37,007 nucleotides of DNA from Oscillospiraceae bacterium (GTDB lineage Bacteria > Bacillota > Clostridia > Oscillospirales > Ruminococcaceae). The notes under the pieces are model-generated. The model was not told the origin of the DNA. It did no database searches and saw nothing but the letters and a program-made list of their open reading frames with translations. The DNA lies in the NCBI GenBank assembly GCA_024404875.1, contig JAKSPK010000024.1, positions 1 through 37,007 of the forward strand, read 5' to 3'. Below, one piece after another: positions 3,551-24,635 of the stretch (positions are counted from its first letter, which is position 1; every line of letters starts with the position of its first letter). Both the position numbers and the translations under genes were made by a program.

Positions 3551-3551
3551 C

Positions 3552-4772: not shown

Positions 4773-4833
4773 CGGCAATACTCCTTTCTTTTTCCGAAAA
4801 TAATACCGAACAAGGCTGATGGTACAAATGACG

Positions 4834-6627: not shown

Positions 6628-6813
6628 TCAAGCGTCAACTTCAGAAGTAAACCGCATTGTATAATCCATTATGGCAAACTGCGCATCCGCGACGGTAATC
6701 TCACCGTCCATATTGACATCATCCTTTTTGCAGGTCTCTGCCGCAGAAACGGGCGCGGCCATTGTGCTGCCGAGCATCAATGCTGCGGTCAGTGCTGCTA
6801 TCAATTTCTTTTT
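6628..6813 (-). pseudogene. Relic of a secreted dockerin-type protein
   Basis: The minus strand encodes KKKLIAALTAALMLGSTMAA, a clear signal peptide, followed by PVSAAETCKKDD and then VNMDGEITVADAQFAIMDY. The latter is one half of a type I dockerin (calcium-binding D-x-N-x-D-G, then DAxxxxxY). The frame stops soon after, at EVDA. A TAA stands where the start codon should be, and no ATG or GTG lies in frame before the signal peptide; only a TTG at the fourth codon is available, without a ribosome site. Normal dockerins carry two such half-repeats. It is best read as a decayed gene, though a leaderless small exported protein cannot be excluded. Confidence 0.55.
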
Positions 6814-7221: not shown

Positions 7222-7443
7222 GTTCTGCTTATGCTTATATTTTCAGTTTACTTATTCTTCTCATTCCTGATGAAAGATCTTTTCAACTTATCCCTTGATT
7301 TCAATTTCAGGTAATTCATTTGATTCAAGAGATCTGCCAGCTGAGGTTGTAATTACATCTTCATTGTCAAAAATTATTATTTCCATTTCAGGAACAACAT
7401 ATTTCTCCATATACTTCTCCTTTACTTCTTAACATATTCAGAA
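7222..7443. repeat. Duplicated ~220-bp block, copy A
   Basis: Nearly identical to 24287-24503, same orientation. The block holds the 40-residue mini-gene, its ribosome site and about 60 bases downstream. Inside the coding part only two residues differ. Similarity fades on the right within what, in copy B, are the last codons of a domain relic (SEYVKK-stop here, SESIN-stop in copy B). Confidence 0.9.
7288..7410 (-). CDS. 40-residue acidic mini-protein, MEKYxxPE family (copy A)
   Basis: Starts MEKYVVPEMEIIIFDNEDVI, continues TTSAGRSLESNELPEIEIKG and stops. It is acidic, has no cysteine, no signal peptide and no membrane segment. The ribosome site AAAGGAG lies 6 nt before the ATG. It is nearly identical to the copy at 24346-24468 (differences I/V at residue 13 and S/P at residue 32) and related to the one at 7941-8054. 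No promoter is seen between the hairpin at 7446-7476 and this start, so expression may need read-through. I recall similar short Clostridia ORFs with an EDVITTS core, but no described function. Duplication with preserved reading frame argues that it is a real gene. Confidence 0.75.
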   Translation of the reverse strand: MEKYVVPEMEIIIFDNEDVITTSAGRSLESNELPEIEIKG

Positions 7444-7499: not shown

Positions 7500-7928
7500 T
7501 CAGAAAATGTCAATCGGCAGAAGTTCATTCTCATCCGTTACTGATGGTTTCGGTGCAGTCGCATTTTCCGTTTGATGGGGTGTTGTATTCGTCTTCGCCG
7601 CAGTTGTCACGGACTGTTTTTTCTTTGATGCATCAGTCTGCTGTCCGGTTGTTGCAGCAGACGATTCTTCCGAACTGCCGTTCTTTGGTTTCGCTGTCTC
7701 GGCTTCATCAGAGTCATTCTGTACCGTTGTGACAGCCGCAGACGGCTTTTCGGGATCGGAAGCAGTTTCTGTTTTCGCATCGTTGACTTCTGTCTCCGTG
7801 CTGATATCCGTCACTTCCGTTCCGGTCGTTTTCGGAGTATCCTCCGTTTTCTGCTTATCGTTTGCACTGCATGCTGTGAGCAGGACTGCTGCTGTCAGCA
7901 GCCCTGCAAGCCAGATTCGTTTCTTCAT
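7500..7928 (-). CDS. Small Thr/Ser-rich lipoprotein
   Basis: 142 residues. The N terminus is a lipoprotein signal: KKR, a hydrophobic stretch, then the lipobox LTAC with Cys20 as the predicted lipidated residue. The rest is low-complexity, rich in Thr, Ser, Glu, Asp, Lys and Ala, with no globular domain visible, and probably extended in the wall. The C terminus is hydrophobic and acidic, NELLPIDIF, resembling the NELPEIEIKG tail of the 40-residue mini-proteins. It begins 12 nt after the mini-gene at 7941-8054 and is probably the last gene of the giant-protein operon. Function unknown; it could be a surface tether or spacer. Confidence 0.8.
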   Translation of the reverse strand: MKKRIWLAGLLTAAVLLTACSANDKQKTEDTPKTTGTEVTDISTETEVNDAKTETASDPEKPSAAVTTVQNDSDEAETAKPKNGSSEESSAATTGQQTDASKKKQSVTTAAKTNTTPHQTENATAPKPSVTDENELLPIDIF

Positions 7929-7940
7929 TGTTTCTTCCCC

Positions 7941-8054
7941 TTATGCGCCGAACGGATCTATTTCATCGCCTTCGTCCAGCTCCAGTGAATGCGTCAAAAT
8001 TTCTGCATTTGCAAATTCAATCATTTTCAGTTCGGGTTCAGCGTATTTTTCCAT
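7941..8054 (-). CDS. 37-residue acidic mini-protein, MEKYxxPE family (copy C)
   Basis: Reads MEKYAEPELKMIEFANAEIL, then THSLELDEGDEIDPFGA. It shares with the 40-residue copies the start MEKY, PE at residues 7-8, the I-x-F/F-x-N core, T-x-S at about 21-23 and an acidic tail. It has no cysteine and no signal peptide. The ribosome site AGGGGG lies 7 nt before the ATG. It sits 16 nt after the stop of the 1309-residue secreted protein and 12 nt before the lipoprotein, so all three are probably co-translated. It is diverged in sequence from the other copies, which supports selection on the shared positions. Confidence 0.75.
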   Translation of the reverse strand: MEKYAEPELKMIEFANAEILTHSLELDEGDEIDPFGA

Positions 8055-8070
8055 ATCAATTCCCCCTGTA

Positions 8071-11000
8071 TCAGTGCGCTGATGCAAAATATGTTTCAGC
8101 AGCATCCCAATAGAGATACAAGGCTTTGGCCGTATTCAGCAATGTATCACTCGGCGGATTGTTATAAACAGCATTGGCATAGCTGAGTGCGGAATAGGAA
8201 ATGGTGCAACCGCCGACCGTTATGGTATGCTGTGCATCCAGATCCTTTGCCGCGATATTGAACAGATCCACAGCGTATTCATTGGTATTGGTGAATTTTT
8301 TCGGTTTGACTGCTTCACCGTCCAGCTTGAATGCATAGCCGCTGATCGCGTTCTTGGTCTCAAAATTCATTCTTGCCGTTGTTTCCGTCATCAGAAGGAG
8401 CGACATGGAACGAAGTGTCAGCCCATCCGGAAGATCGCCTGTTATTGTCGCTGCAAATGCTGCAAAATCATCCGCAGTCAGAGCGTCAGCTTTGCTCTGA
8501 TATGCTGTATTCTGCGCATCTGTCCATGTTGACATAACATCCGTATTGTAATCGAAGTGAAGCTGTGCGGATTCGCCGTATTTCAGCATATTTCTGGCCA
8601 GTTCACCCAGTGCGTCCGTTCTGTCCTTAATTGAATCCAGATAGTCCGCAACACACGATGTATTGCTTGTACCCTTATACTCACCTTTGTTGTTATACAA
8701 GCTGATTTGAGCGCCGCTTGCATTCAGCACAGTCAGTTTCAGTTCGTCATGCATTTCCTTCGCATTCACCCAGTAGGTGAATTTGTAGCTGCCGTCAGAC
8801 TGCTTTGCACTTGCAGCATCATATTCCGCATCATTGATTGTGACGGTCGCATCGTCTGCAATGTCGCTCGGAATAATCAGATAGAAATTCATGCCGATAT
8901 CGCCGTTGAGCGTAACACTTGCCTTATCCAGAATAACATGATTATTCGTGACATTGACTGTAATCTTTCGCTCAATTCTGCCTGTCGCTGCATTGTAGCC
9001 ATTGATGTTGCTGTAGTCATAATTCTCATCATCGACATCAAGATATGCAAGATACTGCTCATTATTGACTGACGGCACGATCGTGCTGTCTGCCCACTTC
9101 CATGCACTGTCGGAAAGCGCTGCATCTGCAAGCGTCTGTCCGTATTCTACAGAAGCAGCTTTCGGAGTTGTCGGGCTGGTTGCTGTACCCTTTGCTGATG
9201 TGAAAGTCAGCTTAAGCGATTCGGTTTCACCGTTTCCGGCGGTAATAGTGAAATCCAGTTCAAATTCACCGACCAGATTCGGCGTTCCTTTCAGCATACT
9301 GTCCGAAAGAGACAAGCCATAATCTGCAGCAGGATCCAGACGGAATGTTACACCGCCGACCTCTGCCGCATTCTTGACATATTCCGCAAGCGAAATATTG
9401 GTGATCGACTTACCGTATTTCACGGAATAGCTTGTTTTCTTGCCGGTATCAAGCTGGATGGACGGATAAATGATCTCAATTGTCACGCTGCATGGAGAAA
9501 TCTTTTCCAGCGGAACACTCAGAACTTCACCGGTCGTACCATTTGTGATCTCATACTGATAAGTCGGATCCAAGCCCATAAGAACCGCATTGACAGCCGC
9601 TGCATCCGAATTCGAATACACGCCATCGGGAACAGAGAGCTTTTTACGGTCTGCTGTAAATTCAATATAATAGACAGGCATTGCGCCGAGCTTCGGATAT
9701 TTATCCGTTCCAAGCTGCTGTCCCCAGCTTCCGCCGAGATCTTTTGTGATTTCGCCGGTTGCCAGTGTAGAATCGTCAAAACCGATTACGATCAAACCAC
9801 CCATTCCCGATGCCATAGAATCAGAGCTTCCGAATAGTTCTTTCGCACTATCCTCAGCCGGCTTGATGTTCAGGCAGTTTGTCATTATGGAATAATCAGA
9901 ATCGAAGGCTCCGGCAATGGCGCCAATTGTTTCATAATCGGAACCATACAGCATTCCGAAATAACCGCAGTCCTTGATCGAAGTGTTCATTGTTTTGCCT
10001 GCAATGCCGCCCGTATTGGCATCATTCTGAACATAGGAATCTTCCACAAGCAGATTATTGATCGCACAACCGTCAACAGTACCGAACAGACCTGACGGTT
10101 CTTGGCTTCCGGAAGCATTCTTAATATACAAACCGCTGATCGAATGATTCTGACCGTCAAACGTGATATTTTTCGCATTCATCGGTATCCATTTCATCGG
10201 ATCCGTATTGACAACCGTACCGCTCTCATCCAGCAGCGATTCATTGATTACAATGTCATTGCAAAGAACCGCATCCATACCGGTGTCATCGTCTGCCGCA
10301 TTCAGCATTTTTGCATAGCTGAGCAGATTTCCAGGATTCTTGAGCTGATAAACACCGTCAACAACTTCCGGTTCTTTATATGCGCCGCAGACATCGCAGA
10401 TACCGTCAAGTGCCTGACCAACGTGTGTGCTGGTCCTGGTGCTGTCATTTGAACCGGCTTTTCCGGAACCCGCACATTCATCGACCAAATAGATCTCACC
10501 GTGTTCAGAACTTGCCACCGGAAATACATCGGGTTCTTCGCCGTTGTCGATATTCTGGAACCAGATTTCCTCAGAAAGAAGTTCGTTCATCTTCGCGCCC
10601 AGCGCTCCGCTGACTGCATCGCTTCTATCAAATGCTGTCAGTTCTGAGTCATCTTCTTCCGTCACAGGCACCTGTTCGTAAAAGCCGGTCGATTCATTGA
10701 ATTTTTCAACGCTGTATGCCCCTTTGTGATCGCTTGTCGGGTTATAATAACAATTTTCGATTGAGCCGTTTTCATACTGCGTTTCACAGATCGCGCCGAA
10801 GGAACCGTTTCCGACACAGTAGCAGTTTGAGATCTTGCCGACGACTTCTGTATCATACTCGTCGGTTGAATATTCTGAACATCCGTTAAATGATACGAGA
10901 TATTCGCCTTCGACAAAACAACAGGAGATCGTGCCTTTATTCGTTTGGACGATCGCACCGCCGCTGTCCGTCAGACCGAGATTGCAAATTGTGCTGTCAA

Positions 11001-12000
11001 AACGGATTTCCGTAAACAACGGCTGACCTTTCAATCCGCTGATGACATAGCCCTGTCCGTCGAATACCGCGTTTTTCAGATCCCTTTCCGGCAAAGGCTG
11101 TCCGTCAACTGCAATATTTGCTGTCAGTTTTGCGTTATAATCATACTCTTTGAATGTTTCGCTGTCAAGCTGACGTTTATTCTCGAGATACCAGCACAGT
11201 TCGCCGTAATTGCTGATCTCATAGTAATCATCTGACGGATCTTCAGTACCGTTGTCAATCAGCACAGGCTCACTGAATCCACCGCAGTTTGTGCAGCAGC
11301 CGTTCACTAAGTAACTGGTGCCATCCGGCCTTTGATGCGTACAATCTGCAATGGTGTATTCAAGTTCAACATAGGAATCGTAATTCAAGTGATAATGGTC
11401 AGCATATTCGTCCTTAACGCGATAGGTGATCGAATACGTTCCCGGTTCATCCGCAGACAAATCTCCTTCCGCCGTACAATATGCAGAAATATCTGTTTTC
11501 AGCTTCGGGGACTGTGAAACGCCCTTGACATACGGCAGCGTATCCTGCACATATTCCGGCGTACCCAGATTGATCGGACAAATCACAAAATTGAAATACA
11601 CATCCTCTGTCGTATTCCAGGGCCAGGCATAACCGTCCTTGAGCTTTGCAACAAGCTGATAGCTGCCGACTTCCTTCGCACTGATTCTGCCGTTTTCATC
11701 AACAATCAGATCACCGCTGTCAATCGGCAGCAAGCCAAGCTCATTGTTTCCGCCGGCGCCGACATCCATACAGGCAGGCATGACGATATATCCCAGATCG
11801 ACTTCATTGGAATACTGTTTGCCGGATTCATACTCATAATAGATATAATCGCCTGAATATTTCTGACCTTCATACTGATTCTGCTGCCAAGGCAAACTGC
11901 TGTACATTACGTCTGCAAATGCCGCATACTGCGGAAGCAACGCTATGGCAGTTACTGCCGCTGTCATCGCCGCAGCAGTACGCCGAATTGTTGTTTTCAT
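8071..12000 (-). CDS. Giant secreted GLUG-repeat protein with shared C-terminal domain
   Basis: 1309 residues with a Sec signal peptide (MKTTIRRTAAAMTAAVTAIA, cleavage likely after AFA). Cysteine-containing inserts lie near 218 (NGCCTNCGG) and 535 (DGICDVCG), each just before a repeat block. About 290-460 and 560-760 contain GLUG-like beta-helix units such as FDGQGYVISGL, FDGQNHSISGLYI and GGIAGKT, as seen in adhesins and wall proteins. Ig-like segments follow near 848 (SIQLDTGKKTSYSVKYGKS) and 943 (AASVEYGQTLADAALS). Residues about 1018-1309 form a domain homologous to the end of the 3985-residue protein (VTLNGDIGMNFYL, CVADYLDSI, TAKALYLYWDAAETYF). No LPXTG, SLH or dockerin anchor is visible. 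Probably a surface or matrix protein. Confidence 0.85.
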   Translation of the reverse strand: MKTTIRRTAAAMTAAVTAIALLPQYAAFADVMYSSLPWQQNQYEGQKYSGDYIYYEYESGKQYSNEVDLGYIVMPACMDVGAGGNNELGLLPIDSGDLIVDENGRISAKEVGSYQLVAKLKDGYAWPWNTTEDVYFNFVICPINLGTPEYVQDTLPYVKGVSQSPKLKTDISAYCTAEGDLSADEPGTYSITYRVKDEYADHYHLNYDSYVELEYTIADCTHQRPDGTSYLVNGCCTNCGGFSEPVLIDNGTEDPSDDYYEISNYGELCWYLENKRQLDSETFKEYDYNAKLTANIAVDGQPLPERDLKNAVFDGQGYVISGLKGQPLFTEIRFDSTICNLGLTDSGGAIVQTNKGTISCCFVEGEYLVSFNGCSEYSTDEYDTEVVGKISNCYCVGNGSFGAICETQYENGSIENCYYNPTSDHKGAYSVEKFNESTGFYEQVPVTEEDDSELTAFDRSDAVSGALGAKMNELLSEEIWFQNIDNGEEPDVFPVASSEHGEIYLVDECAGSGKAGSNDSTRTSTHVGQALDGICDVCGAYKEPEVVDGVYQLKNPGNLLSYAKMLNAADDDTGMDAVLCNDIVINESLLDESGTVVNTDPMKWIPMNAKNITFDGQNHSISGLYIKNASGSQEPSGLFGTVDGCAINNLLVEDSYVQNDANTGGIAGKTMNTSIKDCGYFGMLYGSDYETIGAIAGAFDSDYSIMTNCLNIKPAEDSAKELFGSSDSMASGMGGLIVIGFDDSTLATGEITKDLGGSWGQQLGTDKYPKLGAMPVYYIEFTADRKKLSVPDGVYSNSDAAAVNAVLMGLDPTYQYEITNGTTGEVLSVPLEKISPCSVTIEIIYPSIQLDTGKKTSYSVKYGKSITNISLAEYVKNAAEVGGVTFRLDPAADYGLSLSDSMLKGTPNLVGEFELDFTITAGNGETESLKLTFTSAKGTATSPTTPKAASVEYGQTLADAALSDSAWKWADSTIVPSVNNEQYLAYLDVDDENYDYSNINGYNAATGRIERKITVNVTNNHVILDKASVTLNGDIGMNFYLIIPSDIADDATVTINDAEYDAASAKQSDGSYKFTYWVNAKEMHDELKLTVLNASGAQISLYNNKGEYKGTSNTSCVADYLDSIKDRTDALGELARNMLKYGESAQLHFDYNTDVMSTWTDAQNTAYQSKADALTADDFAAFAATITGDLPDGLTLRSMSLLLMTETTARMNFETKNAISGYAFKLDGEAVKPKKFTNTNEYAVDLFNIAAKDLDAQHTITVGGCTISYSALSYANAVYNNPPSDTLLNTAKALYLYWDAAETYFASAH

Positions 12001-12072: not shown

Positions 12073-15000
12073 TTATCTGTCGAAATATCTGTCGGCTGCC
12101 ATGCTGTAGAGATACAGTGCTTTTGCCATATCTGCAAACTTGGTATCGTGGCTGTACTGCCGCAGAACCTTTGCTGCATATGTCAGCGGGCTGTATTCCA
12201 CAGTAAGGGTATTCGAGCCGTCAGTAAATTCAAATGTAAATGTTTCACTGAGGTCAGAAGCACTGATATTGCTGAGTTCGACATAATACAGAGAATCCTT
12301 CTGCTGGATCGGGAGTGCCTGTTCGTCGGCCGTTACGCGCCAGCGCGAGATACTATTCGCTGTGAAATACAGACGGATCGCTGTATCGGATTCCAGAACA
12401 AGCGATGCAGATTTCAGCGTAAGCTGATTGTTTGTACTGCCTGTCTGCGTGAGCTGGTAATCTTCCAGCATATTGGCTTTCACGCCGGAGATTTCATCGC
12501 TGACAGGAAGTCTGTCATCTGTATGGTAGTCGAAATATGCCTGTGCGCAGCTGCCGTAATCCTGAAGTGCTGCTGTCAGACGATGAATTTCTTCAGAATA
12601 CTTGCCCTCTGTATCACTCTGAATCGCTTTCAGATAATCTGCAACACAATATGTAAAGCAGTTATTCGGAACTGTCTTTCCGCTCATGTACGAAAGCGGA
12701 ACAATACCGCCGCCGCCCGTGCGGACCTGAAGTGTAATTTCATCTGTCATTTCCTTTGCTGCAACAAAATGTGTCAGTTTGAATCTGCCGTCAGGCTCCG
12801 GTGTCAGGGAGCTGATCTTGATCTTCTGGTTATTGCTTTCGCTTGTGAGAAGGATATATGCCTTGCTGTCTGCAAGCAGTGTCTGCGGGATATGCGTGTA
12901 ATAATTCACACCGATCGAACCGTCGAGTGTCAGCGATGCGCCGTCCAGCACGAATGCATCTGAAATTGCGTGCCATGTGCATCTTGCGCTGCTGCTCAGC
13001 TGATACTTGGCCGCATCTGCACCCTCCAGCTTATTCGCTGTCGTTGTCAGATCCGTGTAGATGCTTGTGGTAGAATCATTTGTGCAGATCACCTTGACGT
13101 CATCGCCCTCGACCAGATTGGCCGGACGCGCTGCGATCGTTGCCTTGCCGTTTTTGTCAAGCATAATGTTGTCTTTGCCTGCTGTAAAGGTACCGCCGTT
13201 CATGGAGCCCCATTCGAGTTTCAGCGTTCTCGGCGAGATCGTCATTTCCACGCTCGGATTTTCACCCAGCGTATAGTTTGCTGCATCTGCGCCGATCAGA
13301 TTTGCCTCATAGGCAACATTGACTTTGCCGATCAGCTTATCTGCCGTACCGGACGAAAGGTTGCTGCGGTTCATATTAAGCTGAACCTCATCACCGTGGA
13401 AGAATCCTTCCGCAGTCGGAGCAACCAGAGCTGCATCAATGGTATTGAGCGATACAAAGTCTGTTCCGTCATAGCTGCGTTCCTCCGGAACAATACCTGT
13501 TATGGAGAGCTGATACGGATCAACGGTCACATGAACGGTCAGCGTACCGCTTGCGCCGCCTGCTGTACCTGCTGCTGTCGGAGTGATCTTCAGCGTATAT
13601 TCGCCTGCATCCTCCGGTGTTGTAACGGTATTGCCGTCCTTGTCGAGCCATTCGACATCAAACCATGTGCTGTCAGCGCCGGAGATTGCCTTACCGTTCT
13701 CATCGAGAACTGCGATCTTCGATGCATCGACAGATAGTGCGCCTGCATTCACGGTCGGATTCTTTCCGTCCGCTGTCAGGAGTGTTCTGGTTTCCTTGTC
13801 AAGTTTCAGGGCGCTGCCGTCCGGACTGAGGACACAGCCTTCCGCGCTGACATCCAGATTCGGCATTGTCCAATTTGCATAAAGCGTCATATTCTTGCAA
13901 ACTGCGGTGCTGAAGCTGAATTTTTCTGTCAGGGCTTCGTCTTTATACCAGCCTTCAAATTCGCCCCATTCGCTGACAGGTGTTTTCGGTTCTGCGACCG
14001 GCTTGCCGAGTACAGTGGTTTTTTCCAAATCTTCGACATCATCTGCAATGCCCATATCGAAGGAAACTGTCATGGTATCGCTGTATGCACCTGCGACTGC
14101 ATAAGCAACTGATGCAAGCTCATCTGCGGTCAGATCTTCACCGACGGTAAAGGTCACATTGTACTTTTCGTCTGCGATCGTCTGCTCGCCTGCGAATGTG
14201 TCATAATTAACGACATCGTTGTTGGTGTTCTTTTCTGCAATGACATTGCCGTCTGCATCATAGAGCGTGACATTGACATTACAGAGATACTGTTCCTGCA
14301 GGGACTGGTTGGTAATTGCGGAATTGACGGTTACACTGTCATCTGCATACGAAGCGATTGCCTGAATGCCGAACGGTGTATTGTCATCTGTACGCATGGA
14401 TTCGATCACAGCTGAACGTGTGCATCTGCATACTTCATCGCCGTCCTCAGATTCCACGGTTACAACCGCATAAACCGGAATGCCCTCTGCCGGGATCTCA
14501 TCGCTGAAAACATATGCACAATCCATGATATCTTCGACAGTCATCTGTACTTTTACGTCGCCCATGCCATCATCGATATTGGTCAGCAGATCTTTATCGG
14601 TAACGACCTGTTCTTTGATCAGAACAGTCTTTTCCTCGTCTGCGTATACGCGGACAACAAGCTGCTTTTCAGAAGTTGCAAGCGGGATTGCCAAGGTGTT
14701 ATTCAGCTGGATGTCCAGCGTTCTGAGACCGTTTTCAGCCTTGACGTTATAGCCCAGAACTTCGAGCTTCGGAGCATCGAGTATGAGCGTACCCTCTGCG
14801 GCTGCCTCTGCATCGCTTGTATTGTCTGCCGTGATATGGAAATCAATGTCACGGACAGATGCGCCGACCGTATATGCATACGGAATGGTAACGGATTCGC
14901 CCGGAAGCAGCGGTGCTTCCAACTGGATTTCATCGGTTTCTTTGTTGACCTTCACGCTGTTGACCGGTGTAATACCTTCATTGGTGAGCGTCAGAAGGAT

Positions 15001-18000
15001 CATGGTGTCCAGATTCGGAATAACTGCATTGTTATCATAAACTGCATTGGAAAGTGTCAGATATTCCTTGAATTCAAATGTTTCTGCTTTATAAATGCTG
15101 ACTTCCTTTGCTGTTGCGATTTCAACATAGCCATCCTTGGAATCTGCTTCATATTCTTCGATCTTTGCGTTCAACGCTGCACGATATGCCTCATCGGAAT
15201 CATACATACAGCTGTTGATCACCATCTGTGCTGCTGCCTCAGGTGTGACGGTAACCGGAACTGTCTCAAACTTGGTTTCTGTCAGAATCAGTTTGCCGCT
15301 GTTATCACCATCACCGACTGCATTCAGCTCAGATATGGTTGCCTTATGATCTTCGAGTGTCTTGAAGCACTGCGGAGGTGTCATGCCCTTTTCGCCGGTT
15401 GTAAGCGTATAGAGCTTTGCACCGTAAACAGATGTTTCAATGTAATCGGTCTGACCTGCTTTTTTGCCCTCAGTGAACGGAACTGCGGTCATTGCTGACC
15501 AGAATACGCTGAAATCATCAATGCTGTCGCCGCCGCAGATGGTGAAGATATCAGACATTGCGGAAGCATAGCCGCTCTTGGAAACACTTTCCGGGAAGGC
15601 AGGATCGAACGAGCCGTCCGATTCAATGCACATCAGCAGAATATCCTGTTTTTGGGTGTCAAACCATGCAAGAACGAAGTTATCGCCTGCTGTCGTGACC
15701 TGAAGACTTGTTTCATTGTTCTCGTTCATCGTCAGACGGATCGGGTTGGAAGCTGCGCCGCCTGTTACGGTCGAATAGAATACTTCAGTTGTATCGCCGG
15801 TCTGAACAGAATAGGTTACAAGCGCTGTACCGTCTGCCAGAATTGCAGTATCGCATCCGGTAATACCGCCGAACGAGCCGTCATACAGAGCTGCGGGTTC
15901 GCTCCAGCTGCTGCCGTTATAAATGCTGTAAACGAGAGAATCGTTCATAGAGGCTTCCAGCGGATTTTCAGAATCAATCGAGTAGGATGTCTTCCATACA
16001 ACGATTGCATTGCTGCCGCAGCCTGCGATCGAAGGTGTCATATCGGGCTGGAAATTGTTGGTGAGCTTCTGGGTTGTCCATTTGCCGTTGCTATAGACTG
16101 AAACGATCGTTTCAGTCGAGTTCATTGCGATTGCAAGGTCATCCAGATTGACTTCCGCAGAGTCATTCTTTTCCTTGGTTGTTTCATTTCTCTGCTGAGT
16201 CCATGCAGCATAGTAAACACCGTCAGAACCGCTCAGGTTAATATAGTAGTCACCGAAGTTCTTAACAGTTTCGCCTTCTGCTGCTTTTTCAGGATCATTG
16301 TTGATTTCTTCCTTTTCGGATTCAGACATTTCGCTGCCGGCTTCAGGGATCGGCTGGGAATCGCCGCCCTTTGTACCGAGAAGTATATCGTCTGCGGAAA
16401 CAATCGTGCCGCCGACCACGCCGCTGCCGTTTGCATAGCTGGCAACATTGTCATCGAGGAACAGGATCATCTGTCCGTCATCCGAATACATAATGGATTC
16501 GATTCTGCTGCTGTCCAAGCTGAACAGATTTTCTTTCGGTTTTGCCATAGTGCGCAGCTTCGGGACATTTTCCTCCACCGTATTCAATACGAACTGGATG
16601 GAATCATCGCTTACATTGCTGATTCTCATGCTCTGGAGCTGATCTGAACGCGAATTATAGAGACGCGGTTTTTCGTTCGGATCTTTCTTTGCGGCGTTGC
16701 TCCATGCATTCTGAATATACTTATACTGCGGAGTTTCAGCATATCCGGATGCGCTCACTTCAAACAATGTCGCTTCATAATTGAACATCAGAGCGTGTGC
16801 CTTGAACTTGAGTGCCAGACCGATTTCAGCGCCGAGTCCTGCACCGAAGCAGGCATTATCATCGCCCCATTTGCCGCACAGCAGCGCGAAATCAACGCTC
16901 AGGCCGCCTGATACCTCAATGCCGAATGTGACACCGATCACGTCGCTGTCCTGGCCGAGTGCTGCGTATACACTCAATCCGAATTTTGCACCGAGTCTTG
17001 TCAGGAAAACGCCTTCTCTGTCCTTTTTCTGATATTGGCCGATACCGTCTTTCGTAATTGCTGATTCATCAACAGTAATATACTTCTGACCGGTCTGGAA
17101 GCTGCCGCCCAGCGTACCCATGATCTCAAGATAAACCGGGATTCCGGGGCCTACGATCAAATTATCCTTAAAGATCTCTTTTTCGATCTCAAATTCCAGT
17201 CCGACATTGAGACCCTTATAGGAATATTCCCATGTCTTGGAATCCAGATCATAGTTCGCTTCCATAATACCGTAAAGGATCGGCAGCGCTTTTTTGATCT
17301 TCGGATCACTGTCATCATCATCGTTGTCGTCTTTTTCGGCTTCTTCGCGTTCCTTCTCAAAGAATTCGCTCATGTAATCATTGAACTGATCGTTATTGAG
17401 TTCTGTTCCTTCCTTCAGATAGGCCGCAATCGACGGTGTCAGATCAGACTTTTCATATTCATAATCATCGGAAGTACTACCGTATGTTTTCGTAGTGGTT
17501 TCGTTGTTGAAACTCTTAGAAAACTCTGCCTGTGCCGCATTGTCAACTTCGGAATCCTGTACAAGTTCATCCATTGCATTGATACCGAACATGATCTCAA
17601 AGCTGGTCGGATCTGCTGTCGGCAGGACGACACAGTTCATCTTCATCTGCACCGGAGATCTGCCCTGATTGATGATCGTAAAGAGCGATGAGCTGCAGGC
17701 GCTGATTGCCTGACCGGCCAGACCGTCTTCATTCAGCAGGCCGAGGACACCGTTCTTCGGATCGGTCAGTTCATCCTGAAGTGTCTGCTGAAGTTCCTTA
17801 ATATCATCCGGATCCATATCGTCCACAACTTCACCGTTCAGGAGCTTGTAGTCAACATCATGCTTGTCAAGTGTATTGCCGGAAGAATAGCTTTGCAGGC
17901 TCATCTGTGCATAATGCTTGTCTTCAAGCCAGCGCAGATTGCTCTTGTTAACTTTCATCACAAGACGGTTGGCAAGAACCGTAGAGAACGGATAGACATA

Positions 18001-21000
18001 CATCTTATCGCTCTGCATACTTGTTTCCTTGCCGATCTCTTTGCGCGTCACGCGGTTCACATAGCGCACTTCTATGTCTGTATCATCTGCGATGCCAGTA
18101 TAATTCGTTGAAGCGTCCTTTTCGATCAGTCCGTCAAAGCCGTCAAATACGGTATTCACGAGCAGATGAATCTCGGAGCTGTTGGCAGTTCTTCCGATAT
18201 ACTCAATATCCTTCGGAATCGCAGCCGTGTTCTTGGAATTGCTGTAGTAGATTTTTTCCGATTGGTAATTAATACCCTGATCTGTCGTTTTGCTGACCGG
18301 ATACAGCGTGACTTCGCCGAAATCATTTGTGATCTCAAACGGGAGCTTATAGCAGCCGTTCACATCCAGTTCAAATGCAAACATCACAGGGATGCTGTTT
18401 TCGTCCTCGGTGTCATCAAAAATCTGCTTGGAATTGAAATAAATCGTAAAGGTACCGTTCTGGTCTGTTGTAAATTTTACGCCGTTCAGACCGTTGGAAA
18501 CGCCGTTGCCGTCATCAGGAATATCCTTCGCAGTCAGCAGATCGGCTGCCGCAGCGTATTTGCTGTTTGCAAGGTCGATGTTGCCGTAAATATCCGTCTT
18601 GGCATCTCTGTAAGCGCCGCCGCGGACCGTTACGGTTGTATTCTTTGCATCCGGAAGCGTTACAAATACTGTATAGCCTCTCTTGAGCTTCAACAGATTG
18701 ACCGGATACAGTTCACCCTTTACAGCGCTGCCTGCACCGCTCAGAAAATCAGCTGTTTCAAATGCATTCTTATAGAAGTAACGTCCGCTCTCCGAATATG
18801 CGTGCATGACGCTGTCCTTCGCAAAGCCGTTCTCCTCATAGAGTGCAAGCTGACCCTGATCATTGGATTCAAATGAACGTTCTGTTCCCTTGCCGTCCGT
18901 ATAAGTGACCTTTGTTTTGATTGCCGGAGTGAACTGGAACAGATAGAGTTCCTTTTCAACGTCGTCAATGGTAATATCGACTTTCGTTGTCATGCCGGTA
19001 TTGGCATGGATCGCGGAAATGATACCGGAACCGTCACCGCTGCCCATGAGAGAAAGATGCACATCAGGAATGATCAGCTTGCCTTCCTTTTCCAGCTTGG
19101 AATTGCTGCCGAACAACTCATAATAAAGATTGGATTCCTTTTCGTCCTTTTCTGCATCATGTGTATCTTCATATCTCCACTTCATGACATCGGAAATCGA
19201 GCCCAGTCTGCCATTTGCAGCCGAAACGAATACCTCATCCGTCAGCCGCATCTGCTGCTGAATCTCTGCCAGTGTCAGGGATTTTGAAAGCGCCATTGTA
19301 TGCTTATCCGTATTCAGATTTGCGAGAATAAACGGACGCTTGGAGAGATCATAGGAGTCGCCGTTTCCGACGGTTTCATTGCCGATTGCAAGCTTCAGTT
19401 TGCCGTCATTGTAGACACCGGCGATTGCAGAAGCAATGGAATATTCGCCGTCTGCGGAGTTGCGTCCATAGAGATTAATCGCAAAGAAGTCTTTCAGGCT
19501 GTTATCCGGAATAGACAGAACCGCAGACGGAATCTTCAGTTCTGTTTCATTGCCGCTTGCCGCCGCGGAAGACAGCGAACCTTTGATGACCTCACTATTG
19601 TCGCTCATACGGATAACGGAATATCTGCCGTTAAAGCCGCTCTTTGCATCGAGAACATGATATGTCATTATCAGATCACTGGAATTGAGGCTATAGCCAC
19701 AGATATCATCCAGCATGAATCTGACAGGGCGCTCATTCACTCGGATCAATGCGCTGTCCTTGAAATCCTGTTTGCCCTCATACGGTTCTGCGAGAGACGC
19801 GGAAATAACTGCTTCATAGGAGAAACCGTTTTCGGGAGAAACCCGTGTCAGAACCTCTTCCGGAATCCGGAAGCTGGTCAGCGAATCCAAATATGTACCG
19901 ATATCTTCTGCTTCATAAACAGGTGTATCGTTAATACGCTTACCCGATTCATCCAGTGCAAAGACCTGAATGCGGTATGTTGTTTCGCTGACATCGAAAA
20001 AGCCTTCGTTTCTTCTGGCAACATTGCTGCTGAACAGAACGGAAAGCGGATCATCCTGATATACCTGAAGCTGCTTTGAAGCGGACGGAACCAACAGGTA
20101 TGTATCGGAAGTTATCATCAGCTTGACCGGCGACGAGGTGATATAAACATAATCCTTTCCTTCGACCAATGCAGCCTTTTCGCTCTGTGTTTTTGCATTC
20201 AGCGCTGCAATGCTGTTCGCAACGCGCAGCTTGAAGCGGATCGTGCCCTCCAGAGAGTCAGAGAAATCCAAAACTTCCAGCTTGGTGATACCATCTTCCG
20301 CAACTGTCCGGAATGTAACAGCAGCGTTCGTTTCCATCGGCTGAATGATCGTTGTTTCACCGCTGGCTTCGTCGGTATATTCTGCAATCCATGTAAACGC
20401 GGATGGTGTATCATAACCGGTACCGCGTGCATTCGTTTTGGTATAGCTGCCGGCTTTTTTGCCGTTATACCACGGCAGGGAGCTCGTGCTGACAGTTTCC
20501 GAAACAGCCGCTCTGCCGGTAGACATATCATAGCTGAGTGTCAGCGGATACTCATATACGCCGTCCGATACTTCATTGATCGAAGCCTGATATGCCAGCT
20601 TATTTGTAATGAATGTGCCCTCATGAGCGGCTTCTTTGATCGAAGGTGCGGTATATACATCGTGATCTTTTTCAAATGTGCTATAATAGTTGGTATAAGG
20701 CGCTGTACGGAACAGCTCAAAAAACATATCCGCACGGTAATCAGCATTATAGACTTCGATAGACTTCGCGATTGCATCATCAGCTGCCTGAATCGTCTTT
20801 TTTGTCCAGTAGTGCAGCGGAATACCGTTGATCGAACCGCCTTCACTCTCCATCTGCTCCAGCCATGCATCGCTGTACTTCAGACCAATCTGCTTCAGCG
20901 CGATAGAGGCATCAGACGGAACAGACTGTCGGTACTCCTTGGAATTTTCCATTATGTTGTTTTCTTCTGTCTGCTGTGAATAAGTATCGAATACATCGCT

Positions 21001-24000
21001 GTCAAGCAAATTGTCATAGGAAGTCAATGCGCTGCTGTACAACGGATTGAAGTACAGATATACTCTTTCCCTCGCCCAATCCGTCATCTTTTTCTTCATG
21101 AGCGCGTCATAGGTCTCATTGCGCTGGAAATACAGATCACCGTATCCGATATTTGCCTTATCGCTGATCTGATCCATCTGATAGAAGAACGGGACTTTCG
21201 ACTTGAATTCATAGGACAGTCCGTAATTGATTCTCGGAAGAACCTTCTTCGCATCAGAATAATCGGTCTGATCGTTGCTCAGATTCAGGAAATCCGTGTG
21301 GATATATGCCGTGCCGGAATAATCCACATCAGGTGTTGTACTCTCAACATAGAAATAGAGATAATCCACATAGTCCGGTGTACCGGATGGTTCCAGAACC
21401 GTATGACAATATACTTTCGTATCTGTCATGTTGGTGCAGTCATCCACATACATAGACGGAATAAAGCTCAGGCATGAGGTATCAGCCTCAACAAAGATCT
21501 GATCCATTGCCCATTGCTTCGCGTCATTTGTCGGCTCACCGGTCGTGCTGTCAGTACGAATCGGAATACGATACTCAATAAGCTGACCGTCCATATAGCT
21601 GCCCGACGGCGTCGGCTTCAGTGTTTTCGTAGCCGAATCGAAAACATATTCTGTTTTCTCATTGACATAAGACCAGCTTGCCTTTGAGAAATCCAGTACA
21701 TTCGGTATTGTTGTGATCGAATCGTCACCATTGCGGTGTACCATCTGATCAGGCGTCGAAGTATCATAGATCTGCTTGTTGGCTTCAACTTCCGGAACAA
21801 AACTGATGATTTCACCGGTTTCCTCATCTGTCGGATTGAGAGAGGCAAGATCAAAATTCACGCATGAAGCTTGCTGACAGTTCCGAGAACCATCCTCCGA
21901 ATACAAACTATCATACCATGTTTTTGTATCGACTGATTCTTTGGGTGCCTTTGGATCACGTTCACGGGTATGCAAGGAAAAACCTTCAGCCAATGAACCT
22001 GTCGCATCCGCATAAGTGTATTCCTCACAAGTGAGGCTATCTATCTTGAATTTCTTATTTGCGCCGACGCGGAAACGCAGATACTGATAGCCGTCTTCAC
22101 CTATGAATGTATCCTGCTCCAGCAGATCTTGTGATGACTGATTATCCTTTCCGGGGATCGCCTCAACATAGGATTCCTGTGAAGAATCCTCATAGGTCAG
22201 CCAGAGCGTATACTGACAGGGAATCTCAAGCTGATTGAGGGCCTTCTGATAGGCCTCCTTCTCATCGTCAGTCAGCGTTACGTTGATCGTATTGTTATTT
22301 TCATCCGAGTCCTGATAGCTGCCGATCTCAAATCTTCTGCCGCTCGGTGTCAGACTGGTATTCTTCTTCATCTTGAATACAAGATAATCACCAATATAGC
22401 GAGCTGAATCAATGAAATATTCGCCGGAAACCCTCGATGTGTCGAAGTCCACCCGCCATTCCAAAAAACTGTTCTCTATCTTGCTCGCCTGGGCACCTTC
22501 CATCCACGCATTTACGGAAGCGTTGTAACCCACAATTCCGCCGTCCGTATAATCGCAGCTGCTCTGCGGATGCAATACCAGTTCCCATGTTTTGCTGCCT
22601 TTTGTAACGGTATTTGCCGCAGTGTTCCAAACGATTGTTGTACCATTCTCACTCTTATATGTGGTTTCGTTCTCAGCAGCGCCGTCCTGCGGTTGCAATG
22701 TCTCCTGAAGCACCTTTTCACCGGAAAACAGATGACCGCTATAGATATTCACCACATTATCGTCAAGATCAAGTTCATAGATCATACCATTCTCTTCAAA
22801 ATGAATGATATGCGATCCTGCACCATGTCTGTTCGGTCCGTCTGCATAAGCCGGCGTCAGCGTATTCGAGCTGAGGCGCGTATTTTCCTCTTGTGCAGAA
22901 AGATATTCGTTATCAGTTACACAAGGCAGAACGCAGACCTTACTCGTTACATAATGCAGATTGGTATCTTTCATCTGAATATCAGGTGAATACAGTTCCA
23001 GTTCAAATTCACGATAACAGTTCGGAGAAGCTGCCGTAAATGTCAGTGTGGTATCTTTTGCAACCTTGATCCAGCCCTCAGAATCGTTCACAGTCTGCGT
23101 GCTGATCTCTTTTCCGTTATCAAAATTCACTTTGGAAAGCTTGATATCGCCAAGACCGTCTGTCACATGAATCCGGAAGAAAACCTCGGCAGTTCGGTCA
23201 GCCGCGCAATCCGACATTAACGCAGAAAGTGTAAAGCTTCCTTTGCTGTCCATCTGCGTATGGCCCCATGTGTCGCCCAGAGCGCACAGACTGCGGCTGC
23301 CGTACACCTCTTTTTTCGTCTCATACTTGAATGAATCCAACTCGACATCCAGCTTCGGCATTTTCCGTTCGATCTTCAGGGAATTGCCTTTTGCATCCGC
23401 GGTCATTTCATCGTCTACCCGATCCGGATAAGTCGAAGGGCCCACCGGCGACTTCGGCAGAACAAGGTTCATGCCGTTCATCCGGAAACGCTTTGAGATA
23501 TCTCTTTGCAGACTCTGCTCCATCGTTGCCAGCGAAGGATCATCCGGATCAATATCGCCGTTCCTGACACCCTTTGCCACATTGGCAAAGGCCATGAGGT
23601 AGTCCTTGTAAGTCAGCAAAACAGCGACTTCTCCCCATGTCAGTTCCTCGCCCTCGGCCATAACTGTTTCATCTGCGGTATGGTGTTCAGCCATTTCGCG
23701 CAGTTCTTCCTCGGTCACATTCTGTCCGTTGATATTGTAGCTTTCAACAGGCAGGATATCACCATTCCGGTCGATCACGCCCTGCTTATACAGCGTGTAC
23801 AATACTTCCTCTGCATCATACTGATCGCCGCCGTATTCCTGCACAGCTGCGACCAGATCATCCGGAAATTTCATGCCGGACTTTTCAGCCGCTGCAGAGA
23901 TCTCGGCAGCCATGACCTGTGCCACATCCATCGGCAAAAATCCCGCTGTCATCGTGAGTGCAGCTGTAAAAGCCAGCACACGTTTCCATGTTTTACTGCT

Positions 24001-24030
24001 TGTATACAACTGCTGTTTTTTTTGCTTCAT
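12073..24030 (-). CDS. 3985-residue secreted multidomain surface protein
   Basis: Start ATG at 24028-24030 (MKQKKQQLYT) has GGGAGG eight nt upstream; the frame continues 41 codons further but without a ribosome site. Signal peptide to about residue 41 (ending VMAA). Most of the first 2500 residues are beta-rich and unrecognised. A glycine-rich strand region (about 2307-2430, e.g. FGAGLGAEIGLALKF) precedes a repeat region resembling a beta-propeller (about 2635-2850, e.g. YSIYNGSSWSEPAAL). CARDB-like segments follow at about 3087 and 3217, a Listeria-Bacteroides repeat at about 3332-3391 (FEGWYKDEALTEKF), a YDG-type domain at about 3504-3605, and the C-terminal domain shared with the 1309-residue protein (about 3692-3985). 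No LPXTG or SLH anchor. The unbroken frame over 12 kb argues for strong selection. Function unknown; adhesion or matrix building is a guess. Confidence 0.88.
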   Translation of the reverse strand: MKQKKQQLYTSSKTWKRVLAFTAALTMTAGFLPMDVAQVMAAEISAAAEKSGMKFPDDLVAAVQEYGGDQYDAEEVLYTLYKQGVIDRNGDILPVESYNINGQNVTEEELREMAEHHTADETVMAEGEELTWGEVAVLLTYKDYLMAFANVAKGVRNGDIDPDDPSLATMEQSLQRDISKRFRMNGMNLVLPKSPVGPSTYPDRVDDEMTADAKGNSLKIERKMPKLDVELDSFKYETKKEVYGSRSLCALGDTWGHTQMDSKGSFTLSALMSDCAADRTAEVFFRIHVTDGLGDIKLSKVNFDNGKEISTQTVNDSEGWIKVAKDTTLTFTAASPNCYREFELELYSPDIQMKDTNLHYVTSKVCVLPCVTDNEYLSAQEENTRLSSNTLTPAYADGPNRHGAGSHIIHFEENGMIYELDLDDNVVNIYSGHLFSGEKVLQETLQPQDGAAENETTYKSENGTTIVWNTAANTVTKGSKTWELVLHPQSSCDYTDGGIVGYNASVNAWMEGAQASKIENSFLEWRVDFDTSRVSGEYFIDSARYIGDYLVFKMKKNTSLTPSGRRFEIGSYQDSDENNNTINVTLTDDEKEAYQKALNQLEIPCQYTLWLTYEDSSQESYVEAIPGKDNQSSQDLLEQDTFIGEDGYQYLRFRVGANKKFKIDSLTCEEYTYADATGSLAEGFSLHTRERDPKAPKESVDTKTWYDSLYSEDGSRNCQQASCVNFDLASLNPTDEETGEIISFVPEVEANKQIYDTSTPDQMVHRNGDDSITTIPNVLDFSKASWSYVNEKTEYVFDSATKTLKPTPSGSYMDGQLIEYRIPIRTDSTTGEPTNDAKQWAMDQIFVEADTSCLSFIPSMYVDDCTNMTDTKVYCHTVLEPSGTPDYVDYLYFYVESTTPDVDYSGTAYIHTDFLNLSNDQTDYSDAKKVLPRINYGLSYEFKSKVPFFYQMDQISDKANIGYGDLYFQRNETYDALMKKKMTDWARERVYLYFNPLYSSALTSYDNLLDSDVFDTYSQQTEENNIMENSKEYRQSVPSDASIALKQIGLKYSDAWLEQMESEGGSINGIPLHYWTKKTIQAADDAIAKSIEVYNADYRADMFFELFRTAPYTNYYSTFEKDHDVYTAPSIKEAAHEGTFITNKLAYQASINEVSDGVYEYPLTLSYDMSTGRAAVSETVSTSSLPWYNGKKAGSYTKTNARGTGYDTPSAFTWIAEYTDEASGETTIIQPMETNAAVTFRTVAEDGITKLEVLDFSDSLEGTIRFKLRVANSIAALNAKTQSEKAALVEGKDYVYITSSPVKLMITSDTYLLVPSASKQLQVYQDDPLSVLFSSNVARRNEGFFDVSETTYRIQVFALDESGKRINDTPVYEAEDIGTYLDSLTSFRIPEEVLTRVSPENGFSYEAVISASLAEPYEGKQDFKDSALIRVNERPVRFMLDDICGYSLNSSDLIMTYHVLDAKSGFNGRYSVIRMSDNSEVIKGSLSSAAASGNETELKIPSAVLSIPDNSLKDFFAINLYGRNSADGEYSIASAIAGVYNDGKLKLAIGNETVGNGDSYDLSKRPFILANLNTDKHTMALSKSLTLAEIQQQMRLTDEVFVSAANGRLGSISDVMKWRYEDTHDAEKDEKESNLYYELFGSNSKLEKEGKLIIPDVHLSLMGSGDGSGIISAIHANTGMTTKVDITIDDVEKELYLFQFTPAIKTKVTYTDGKGTERSFESNDQGQLALYEENGFAKDSVMHAYSESGRYFYKNAFETADFLSGAGSAVKGELYPVNLLKLKRGYTVFVTLPDAKNTTVTVRGGAYRDAKTDIYGNIDLANSKYAAAADLLTAKDIPDDGNGVSNGLNGVKFTTDQNGTFTIYFNSKQIFDDTEDENSIPVMFAFELDVNGCYKLPFEITNDFGEVTLYPVSKTTDQGINYQSEKIYYSNSKNTAAIPKDIEYIGRTANSSEIHLLVNTVFDGFDGLIEKDASTNYTGIADDTDIEVRYVNRVTRKEIGKETSMQSDKMYVYPFSTVLANRLVMKVNKSNLRWLEDKHYAQMSLQSYSSGNTLDKHDVDYKLLNGEVVDDMDPDDIKELQQTLQDELTDPKNGVLGLLNEDGLAGQAISACSSSLFTIINQGRSPVQMKMNCVVLPTADPTSFEIMFGINAMDELVQDSEVDNAAQAEFSKSFNNETTTKTYGSTSDDYEYEKSDLTPSIAAYLKEGTELNNDQFNDYMSEFFEKEREEAEKDDNDDDDSDPKIKKALPILYGIMEANYDLDSKTWEYSYKGLNVGLEFEIEKEIFKDNLIVGPGIPVYLEIMGTLGGSFQTGQKYITVDESAITKDGIGQYQKKDREGVFLTRLGAKFGLSVYAALGQDSDVIGVTFGIEVSGGLSVDFALLCGKWGDDNACFGAGLGAEIGLALKFKAHALMFNYEATLFEVSASGYAETPQYKYIQNAWSNAAKKDPNEKPRLYNSRSDQLQSMRISNVSDDSIQFVLNTVEENVPKLRTMAKPKENLFSLDSSRIESIMYSDDGQMILFLDDNVASYANGSGVVGGTIVSADDILLGTKGGDSQPIPEAGSEMSESEKEEINNDPEKAAEGETVKNFGDYYINLSGSDGVYYAAWTQQRNETTKEKNDSAEVNLDDLAIAMNSTETIVSVYSNGKWTTQKLTNNFQPDMTPSIAGCGSNAIVVWKTSYSIDSENPLEASMNDSLVYSIYNGSSWSEPAALYDGSFGGITGCDTAILADGTALVTYSVQTGDTTEVFYSTVTGGAASNPIRLTMNENNETSLQVTTAGDNFVLAWFDTQKQDILLMCIESDGSFDPAFPESVSKSGYASAMSDIFTICGGDSIDDFSVFWSAMTAVPFTEGKKAGQTDYIETSVYGAKLYTLTTGEKGMTPPQCFKTLEDHKATISELNAVGDGDNSGKLILTETKFETVPVTVTPEAAAQMVINSCMYDSDEAYRAALNAKIEEYEADSKDGYVEIATAKEVSIYKAETFEFKEYLTLSNAVYDNNAVIPNLDTMILLTLTNEGITPVNSVKVNKETDEIQLEAPLLPGESVTIPYAYTVGASVRDIDFHITADNTSDAEAAAEGTLILDAPKLEVLGYNVKAENGLRTLDIQLNNTLAIPLATSEKQLVVRVYADEEKTVLIKEQVVTDKDLLTNIDDGMGDVKVQMTVEDIMDCAYVFSDEIPAEGIPVYAVVTVESEDGDEVCRCTRSAVIESMRTDDNTPFGIQAIASYADDSVTVNSAITNQSLQEQYLCNVNVTLYDADGNVIAEKNTNNDVVNYDTFAGEQTIADEKYNVTFTVGEDLTADELASVAYAVAGAYSDTMTVSFDMGIADDVEDLEKTTVLGKPVAEPKTPVSEWGEFEGWYKDEALTEKFSFSTAVCKNMTLYANWTMPNLDVSAEGCVLSPDGSALKLDKETRTLLTADGKNPTVNAGALSVDASKIAVLDENGKAISGADSTWFDVEWLDKDGNTVTTPEDAGEYTLKITPTAAGTAGGASGTLTVHVTVDPYQLSITGIVPEERSYDGTDFVSLNTIDAALVAPTAEGFFHGDEVQLNMNRSNLSSGTADKLIGKVNVAYEANLIGADAANYTLGENPSVEMTISPRTLKLEWGSMNGGTFTAGKDNIMLDKNGKATIAARPANLVEGDDVKVICTNDSTTSIYTDLTTTANKLEGADAAKYQLSSSARCTWHAISDAFVLDGASLTLDGSIGVNYYTHIPQTLLADSKAYILLTSESNNQKIKISSLTPEPDGRFKLTHFVAAKEMTDEITLQVRTGGGGIVPLSYMSGKTVPNNCFTYCVADYLKAIQSDTEGKYSEEIHRLTAALQDYGSCAQAYFDYHTDDRLPVSDEISGVKANMLEDYQLTQTGSTNNQLTLKSASLVLESDTAIRLYFTANSISRWRVTADEQALPIQQKDSLYYVELSNISASDLSETFTFEFTDGSNTLTVEYSPLTYAAKVLRQYSHDTKFADMAKALYLYSMAADRYFDR

Positions 24031-24133
24031 CCTATACGCCTCCCAATAAATTATCCTATAGCCCTGAGCAAAACACCGCAAAAGACGGTAAAAAGGCAAA
24101 TCAAAGCAATCATTTTCAAATTTGCCACTATAA

Positions 24134-24162
24134 AATATAGAAACAACCAGCATTTTTGTCGT
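24134..24162 (-). promoter_or_regulatory. Weak candidate promoter for the giant-protein operon
   Basis: Minus-strand ACGACA, 17 nt, TATATT, about 105 bases upstream of the 3985-residue gene. The -35 match is only four of six. A TTGACA at about 24173-24178 has no -10 at good spacing. Confidence 0.3.
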
Positions 24163-24286: not shown

Positions 24287-24503
24287 TTCTGCTTGTATTT
24301 TCAGTTGACTTATTTTTCTCATTCCTGATGAAAGATCTTTTCAACTTATCCCTTGATTTCAATTTCAGGTAATTCATTTGGTTCAAGAGATCTGCCAGCT
24401 GAGGTTGTAATTACATCTTCATTGTCAAAAACTATTATTTCCATTTCAGGAACAACATATTTCTCCATATACTTCTCCTTTACTAATTAATAGATTCAGA
24501 AGC
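24287..24503. repeat. Duplicated ~220-bp block, copy B
   Basis: Same orientation and nearly the same sequence as 7222-7443. The two copies bracket the giant-protein operon, about 17 kb apart, so they could recombine and delete everything between them. Here the block runs into the last codons of a domain relic, which suggests this is the more ancestral context. Confidence 0.9.
24346..24468 (-). CDS. 40-residue acidic mini-protein, MEKYxxPE family (copy B)
   Basis: Starts MEKYVVPEMEIIVFDNEDVI and continues TTSAGRSLEPNELPEIEIKG. It differs from copy A at two positions only. The ribosome site AAAGGAG lies 6 nt before the ATG. It begins 14 nt after the stop of a 50-residue ORF that is the remaining end of a giant-protein C-terminal domain, the same spacing as between the 1309-residue protein and mini-gene copy C (16 nt). 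The mini-gene therefore kept its frame while its neighbour decayed. No signal peptide, cysteine or membrane segment. Function unknown. Confidence 0.75.
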   Translation of the reverse strand: MEKYVVPEMEIIVFDNEDVITTSAGRSLEPNELPEIEIKG

Positions 24504-24635
24504 GGCTTTGTAATAAAGGCAGAGTGCTTTTGCCGTATGTATTAGGTTATTGTCATCTGAATTTTCAAGTACAGCCGTAACATAATTGAATGCACTGAAT
24601 GTATATGTACATCCGAAAGTATTTTTCGTTTTCAT
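24483..24635 (-). pseudogene. Relic of the shared giant-protein C-terminal domain
   Basis: A 50-residue frame beginning MKTKNTFGCTY. Its segment FSAFNYVTAVLENSDDNN followed by LIHTAKALCLYYKAASESIN aligns with the last ~45 residues of the 1309-residue protein (YSALSYANAVYNN, LLNTAKALYLYWDAAETYF) and of the 3985-residue protein (TYAAKVLRQYS, MAKALYLYSMAADRYF). The body of that large protein is gone. A good ribosome site (GGAGG, 5 nt) and an ATGA overlap with the preceding frame mean it may still be translated, perhaps only to couple to mini-gene copy B. Confidence 0.6.

Follow-up and report, generated by a model that had tools for sequence, protein, structure and literature searches.

The locus described here raises the question of why very short genes should be placed directly behind the genes of giant secreted proteins. 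It lies in a stretch of 37,007 nucleotides from the genome of an Oscillospiraceae bacterium (contig JAKSPK010000024.1; the whole of this stretch is called the window in the following), which contains three such mini-genes. Judged by their comparison with relatives across the Clostridia, the mini-genes probably encode precursor peptides of a family of ribosomally synthesised and post-translationally modified peptides (RiPPs) that resembles the linear polyphosphorylated peptides (LPPs) of Bacilli.

On the minus strand of the window the features follow each other in the order relic of a C-terminal domain, mini-gene 1, giant protein, 1309-residue protein, mini-gene 2, lipoprotein, and mini-gene 3 (Table 1). 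As claimed in the original prediction, the 1309-residue protein ends in a distinct domain and 16 nt behind its gene (end at 8071) starts the 37-codon mini-gene 2 (8054), while 14 nt behind the relic open reading frame (ORF; end at 24483) starts the 40-codon mini-gene 1 (24468). The domain profile confirms the relic, and the features named for the mini-proteins (MEKY, PE, T-x-S, and an acidic tail) are all present. The third mini-gene (7410-7288) exists as well, but the trace of the domain end that was ascribed to it consists of at most 19 nt of the relic ORF, which were carried by a repeat copy. The two mini-genes 1 and 3 cannot be counted as independent, as each is part of one copy of a 215-nt direct repeat (95% identity). 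Between the giant-protein gene and the 1309-residue protein gene there is no mini-gene, and these two genes are directly consecutive.

The mini-protein profile was derived from two starting patterns that were both blind to the domain. The DNA pattern M[K/E][K]YxxP[E] was found at 12 places in seven of 61 relatives, including the window's own genome, of which two (G000:C69 and G023:C108) were dropped because they do not translate as mini-genes, whereas the other ten do. The seven mini-genes found by pattern outside the own genome are all preceded by a large ORF at a distance of 16-37 nt. The profile gave 96 matches in 20 of the 30 genomes of the genus, with up to 17 in a single genome, at a cut-off of E<=0.1 at which the weakest few may be chance matches. 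At the level of the family 51 of 396 genomes were matched, and at the level of the class 51 of 391 with up to 20 matches in one. By their sequences, the mini-proteins form a family across the Clostridia, with the consensus M[KE]xYxxPELExxxFxxEDVITxS followed by a short, variable, and acidic tail. In 91 of the 92 mini-proteins from the fetched loci, conservation is found for the Tyr (88/88) and Pro (76/89) of the N-terminal part, the middle of the leader (F 87/91, E 80/91, D 87/91, V/I 91/91, I 86/91), and the T-x-S motif (Thr 88/91, Ser 87/91), and a hydrophobic residue (L/M/I/V) is found two residues past the position of the leader Pro in 86. The tails have a median length of 14 residues and do not contain cysteines, and 88 of the 91 are acidic on balance. 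This is the layout of a RiPP precursor, in which a constant leader with YxxPELE and a nearly invariant Thr-x-Ser precede a tail that is short, acidic, and variable. The mini-proteins of the window did not match any curated Pfam or NCBIfam family at E<=1, searches of Pfam, NCBIfam, and the PDB with mini-proteins and the C-terminal domain gave no useful match, and a literature search found no description of the clostridial mini-protein family, its link to secreted proteins, or the lipoprotein.

Given that the ORFs are very short, they might be chance frames above a conserved nucleic-acid element. The chance of this is practically nil. A Shine-Dalgarno-like site precedes 78 of 91 mini-genes compared to 1006 of 8012 ATGs (12.6%; one strand of 60 fetched sequences), 55% of the nucleotide differences between related mini-gene pairs fall on third codon positions, and residues are conserved over 91 sequences. 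The codon pattern refutes this explanation in practice.

The adjacency that the original prediction had expected from a profile scan is strong. The domain profile gave 99 matches in the 30 genomes of the genus, which merge into 97 places, and at 70 of these a mini-gene follows on the same strand 15-165 nt 3' of the domain, a fraction that is somewhat inflated because genes adjacent to mini-genes supplied 35 of 36 rows in the profile (A6). At ten further places the mini-gene is found 691-751 nt downstream, and at 17 there is none within 1500 nt. By chance about 0.016 adjacencies are expected (for an assumed total of 86 Mb), and the module of domain and mini-gene is therefore real. Seen from the mini-genes, 9 of 92 were left out of the comparison because there is no ORF of at least 150 residues within 90 nt upstream, and in 75 of the other 83 the window's domain forms the C-terminal end of that upstream ORF. 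The upstream genes of the other eight are without a domain match, and two of these eight come from another family. Outside the genus 74 of 94 mini-genes have such an upstream ORF, of which only 42 carry the domain. The other 32 lack it at E<=0.01 and have different ends, and the idea of one particular domain as the partner is too narrow. The upstream genes look secreted in 57 of 77 cases in the genus, in 30 of 38 in family and class, and in 22 of 27 named loci, compared to 82 of 495 control genes from the same loci, as judged by a crude signal-peptide heuristic. The mini-genes are found 10-70 nt behind the genes of large secreted proteins.

In relatives, a conserved gene block adjoins the mini-genes that comprises a RiPP recognition element (RRE), an HprK-like kinase, a signal-peptidase-like protease, a nucleoside triphosphate (NTP)-transferase, and an ABC exporter. 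Around the mini-genes, 80 loci from the genus (L047-L126) and 40 from family and class (L154-L193) were fetched. The kinase is encoded beside the mini-gene in four and 15 of these, respectively, and all five maturation genes are present in ten of the 19 kinase-holding loci (tblastn). The RRE of the relatives belongs to the Pfam family PqqD (PF05402, E 1.2e-18, over the cut-off), and its profile matches the solved structures of TbiB1 (2.9e-10), TfuB1 (1.1e-7), 9x90 (1.5e-6), and LppB (9x8z, 4.1e-5). The P-loop of the kinase is invariant in 19 of 19 sequences, and S35, H75, and D90 of the protease in 20 of 20. The protease matches the S24 model just below the cut-off, and the signal peptidase I models are also below. 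The NTP-transferase matches PF14907 (NTP_transf_5, Uncharacterised nucleotidyltransferase, E 3.9e-50 and 1.8e-37), and the exporter consists of ABC_membrane and ABC_tran with MsbA_rel as best NCBIfam match. Among 80 named kinase records that were fetched, 37 hold a recognised mini-gene and 63 a recognised RRE, and they include the cultured strains Kandleria vitulina DSM 20405, Coprococcus catus VPIC661, Faecalibacterium prausnitzii APC923/51-1, and Ruminococcus flavefaciens Y1.

Several single loci are notable for their gene content. In L291 (766-1333), a draft titled Synergistaceae whose assignment may be wrong, five tandem precursor-like ORFs are located directly before the kinase. A radical SAM gene is found beside the mini-gene in Faecalibacterium prausnitzii APC923/51-1 (L282:9456-11099) and in a Lachnospiraceae draft (L287:10718-14851). 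The mini-proteins of these two have the same leader and tails that are rich in Cys and Gly or in Cys, so that the leader may also feed a second chemistry. Near the kinase of Kandleria vitulina DSM 20405 a precursor-like ORF (L266:5492-5830) encodes a tail that is some 90 residues long and in which Tyr, Ser, Asn, and Trp are abundant. In L171 (G415), RRE, protease, exporter, and NTP-transferase are present beside the mini-gene without a kinase at E<=1e-10 in a genome that looks complete, and in L312 (8693-8977, G027) two large genes enclose two tandem mini-genes that lie on the opposite strand, and the genome has no match to kinase or RRE.

The same set of five enzymes, including a SipW-like signal peptidase and an MsbA-like exporter, builds the LPPs, which were described for Bacilli in May 2026 (lpp of Paenibacillus alginolyticus; Popov et al., Nat Commun 2026, PMC13381572). 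According to the text of that paper, the kinase LppK transfers several phosphates onto Ser3 of the core while Thr or Tyr at that position is not phosphorylated, the Tyr and Pro of the YxxP motif are required for binding to the RRE, and the protease LppS, helped by the RRE protein LppB, cleaves off the leader behind a Thr, a Phe being at position -3. No effect of LppN could be seen in the host that served for expression, the end product of the LPP pathway was not found, and the biological role of LPP is stated to be unknown by its authors (PMC13381572). The specificity of the LPP kinase for Ser fits the conservation of the clostridial Ser. Shared with LPP are also the leader start YxxPx[L/M/I], a Phe, a Thr, and a conserved Ser just past the leader, the variable C-terminus, and the fact that no lasso B2 protease was found. 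However, the published LPP leader consensus is YxxPxVLxHQxIxFETxxS (PMC13381572), and the second half of the clostridial leader, ExxxFxxEDVITxS, differs from it. Because the continuation HQxIxFETxxS is absent, the clostridial family is filed as LPP-like and not as a strict member of LPP. In addition, the distance from Thr to Ser is two residues in the clostridial leader and three in LPP, the tails are short and acidic, and the precursors are many per genome, dispersed, and fixed behind secreted-protein genes, together with a lipoprotein of matching tail. The main text of PMC13381572 does not mention Clostridi-, Lachnospir-, Oscillospir-, Ruminococcus, or lipoprotein.

By analogy to the characterised LPP system, the leader would be bound, the Ser phosphorylated, the leader removed, and the peptide exported. 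The PqqD-type RRE would bind the YxxP leader, the HprK-like kinase would phosphorylate the conserved Ser as the candidate site, the signal-peptidase-like protease would remove the leader two to three residues before this Ser, the NTP-transferase may decorate the phosphate, and the ABC transporter would export the peptide. The -3/-1 rule of signal peptidases was considered for a cut at T-x-S and dropped as unproven, LppS cutting after Thr with Phe at -3. One machine may often serve many precursors that are scattered over the genome. This resembles the prochlorosins, in which a single enzyme set processes numerous scattered precursors that have the leader in common and differ in their cores, although the prochlorosin enzymes and chemistry are unrelated to those of the clostridial system.

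The maturation genes and the mini-genes also co-occur at the level of genomes. With a kinase match of at least 200 bits (all matches at E<=1e-10 in the genus), both are found in 44 of the 396 genomes of the family, mini-genes only in seven, the kinase only in 17, and neither in 328. The respective numbers are 46, 5, 14, and 326 for the 391 genomes of the class and 14, 6, 1, and 9 for the 30 of the genus. If genera are taken as units the numbers are 20, 3, 7, and 96 (n=126) and 33, 2, 6, and 182 (n=223). Gene order, conservation, and co-occurrence with the kinase are established. The precursors by far outnumber the kinases, with 13 versus two in G020 and 17 versus two in G004, and G020 has a kinase-RRE-protease-ABC block (L304) with no mini-gene in the 16 kb read, while the genome holds 13 mini-gene matches. 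Maturation in trans is therefore likely the rule.

Several observations weigh against an LPP-like precursor. Besides the deviating second half of the leader, a lasso RRE gives the RRE profile a better score than LppB does, the matches of the kinase to HprK-type models (ScmC, HPr kinase) are weak and below the cut-off, and its match in the PDB is a weak one to PEP carboxykinase (E 0.026). The co-occurrence counts are not phylogenetically independent, the counting of genera being the only adjustment. Among 13 mini-bearing genomes without a kinase of at least 200 bits, an RRE is found in only two (G026, G415) and is missing in 11, of which G027, G229, and G696 are 94-97% complete. Some of the mini-gene matches in kinase-poor genomes are weak, while the two in G027 are strong. 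Therefore, some genomes must contain either orphan precursors or a machine that was not recognised. This also concerns the window's own genome (G000), in which kinase and RRE were searched and neither was found (exporter, protease, and NTP-transferase were not searched for).

Thus, it could be possible that the mini-genes of the window are orphans themselves, either remnants of a system that has lost its machinery or precursors for a machine that is not recognised. Upstream of mini-gene 1 there is only a relic of the domain, and mini-gene 3 has arisen recently by copying, which would speak for this. However, we consider this doubtful, because G000 is a draft of 114 contigs and 86.9% completeness, and all three mini-genes are intact frames with ribosome-binding sites (AAAGGAG upstream of mini-gene 1). 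Furthermore, the mini-gene at C2 of G013 is flanked like that of the window, by a frame of 1333 codons upstream and a lipoprotein downstream. A second frame ending in the domain (4036 codons) lies 5' of it, and G013 has kept kinase and RRE on separate contigs. Another explanation is that the mini-proteins are unmodified small partners of the giants or their export, such as escorts, chaperones, or translational regulators, and that the maturation genes are incidental neighbours. The cytoplasmic escort or regulator that the original prediction had in mind belongs here. The tight coupling to secreted-protein genes and the genomes with mini-genes but no detected kinase are what such partners would lead to. 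It is nevertheless improbable given the co-occurrence with the kinase across genomes and the maturation set adjoining in relatives, and a partner would also have to account for a leader motif like those bound by RREs, a variable tail, the row of precursors that directly precedes the L291 kinase, and the same leader beside radical SAM genes. The escort was rejected based on the co-occurrence with the maturation set; the link of domain and mini-gene that was predicted together with it stands, and a role as a signal, which had also been considered, is possible. Finally, an HprK-type kinase with an NTP-transferase is also found in the clusters of the phosphorylated or phosphoglycosylated lasso peptides paeninodin and pseudomycoidin, including those in rumen bacteria, and these clusters share a discrete RRE and an ABC exporter with the clostridial set as well (PMC8498205, PMC7533575). 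Lasso precursors of this type are hardly conceivable here and were rejected because no B2 was found: the leader peptidase (PF13471) is present in none of 23 machine- or mini-bearing genomes, while the same search was positive in two of 14 controls. The leaders of paeninodin have WxxP (according to the text of PMC13381572), while here the Tyr of YxxP is without exception. A lasso cyclase of the Asn-synthase type is not among the 25 Pfam families listed out of 36 (79 of 151 listed ORFs scanned), which contained one GATase domain.

Thus, precursors of LPP-like peptides are the best explanation, and their genomic place may tell where the peptides act. Lipoproteins near mini-genes were chosen by their N-terminus and composition (low-complexity linker) and without using the tail, which gave 70 ORFs, some of them false. 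In 34 dereplicated pairs (from 39; L158 was left out as the mini-protein is fused to the lipoprotein frame), the last 16 residues of the lipoprotein score 19.9 on average against the mini-protein tail of the same locus and 15.1 against tails of other loci (standard deviation 0.79), and none of 20000 permutations reached the observed score. This test is weakened rather than helped because several of the retained ORFs are probably not real lipoproteins. Similar ends of tail and lipoprotein are found in L279 (DELPWVPANE, EDELPWIPA), L249 (GELPFVPAE, IELPFVPAF), L240 (PPEGKQVDPFAG, SPEGELLDPFE), L124 (GDEIPEMDLFE, ENELPEIDLF), and for mini-gene 1 and the lipoprotein of the window (Table 1), and many other pairs match poorly (e.g. 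L080, L062, L173). In 15 of the 80 named loci a lipoprotein ends at most 1.5 kb upstream of the kinase, and 12 of these 15 tails contain LPx[VIL] compared to 0.8 after shuffling. In the left-out locus L158 (8454-8996), the lipoprotein frame runs stop-free into a complete mini-protein, which may be a fusion that arose naturally or a case of overlapping starts.

Co-transcription with the gene of a surface or secreted protein and the presence of a lipoprotein having the same C-terminal motif suggest that the peptide, once exported, works at the cell surface and does so jointly with this protein. Tentatively, and with more reservation, it might be imagined that the giant, the exported modified peptide, and the anchored lipoprotein are made together, and that the tail of the peptide and the end of the lipoprotein are two versions of one ligand, which is read by the C-terminal domain of the giant or by another surface partner. 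If so, a RiPP would control the attachment or release of giant surface proteins, and its role would be structural or regulatory instead of antibiotic. New are the clostridial branch itself, the large number of its scattered precursors, their fixed linkage to secreted proteins, and the lipoprotein with a precursor-like C-terminus. In many gut and rumen Clostridia, individual genes of a precursor family related to LPP are thus linked to those of large secreted proteins and of a tail-matched lipoprotein. The fixed place behind giant secreted-protein genes is a concrete hint at the purpose of LPP-like peptides, which becomes accessible to direct binding and knock-out tests. With more than ten precursors per genome for one or few machines, cluster-based RiPP mining may miss such precursors.

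Table 1. Positions of the mini-genes and the features around them in the window.
Feature	Position	Strand	Remarks
Mini-gene 1, predicted RiPP precursor, 40 aa	24346..24468	-	YxxP leader, T-x-S, tail end NELPEIEIKG
Mini-gene 2, predicted RiPP precursor, 37 aa	7941..8054	-	16 nt 3' of the gene of the 1309-aa protein
Mini-gene 3, 40 codons	7288..7410	-	38/40 residues same as mini-gene 1
Lipoprotein	7500..7928	-	lipobox LLTAC, low-complexity linker, C-terminus NELLPIDIF; end resembles mini-protein tails
1309-aa secreted protein with terminal C-terminal domain	8071..12000	-	signal-like N-terminus, judged by eye
C-terminal domain of the 1309-aa protein	8080..8937	-	domain profile A6, E 1.1e-72
Giant secreted protein, 4026-aa frame	12073..24153	-	likely start ATG 24030, giving 3985 aa (by eye)
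C-terminal domain of the giant protein	12076..12945	-	domain profile A6, E 5.4e-82
Relic, end of the C-terminal domain	24498..24635	-	5' of mini-gene 1; domain profile, E 7.1e-8
215-nt direct repeat, copy 1	7229..7443		holds mini-gene 3
215-nt direct repeat, copy 2	24287..24501		holds mini-gene 1; 95% identical to copy 1

The window contains some further genes of note. At 6628-6804 there is a short secreted ORF that by eye resembles the start of a dockerin repeat and is probably a truncated gene. A permease of the FtsX/MacB type (1168 residues) is encoded together with an ABC ATPase frame, which also matches GAF, at 44-4778, and at 33886-36144 a phage-type integrase adjoins a helix-turn-helix regulator, possibly marking the edge of an integrated element.

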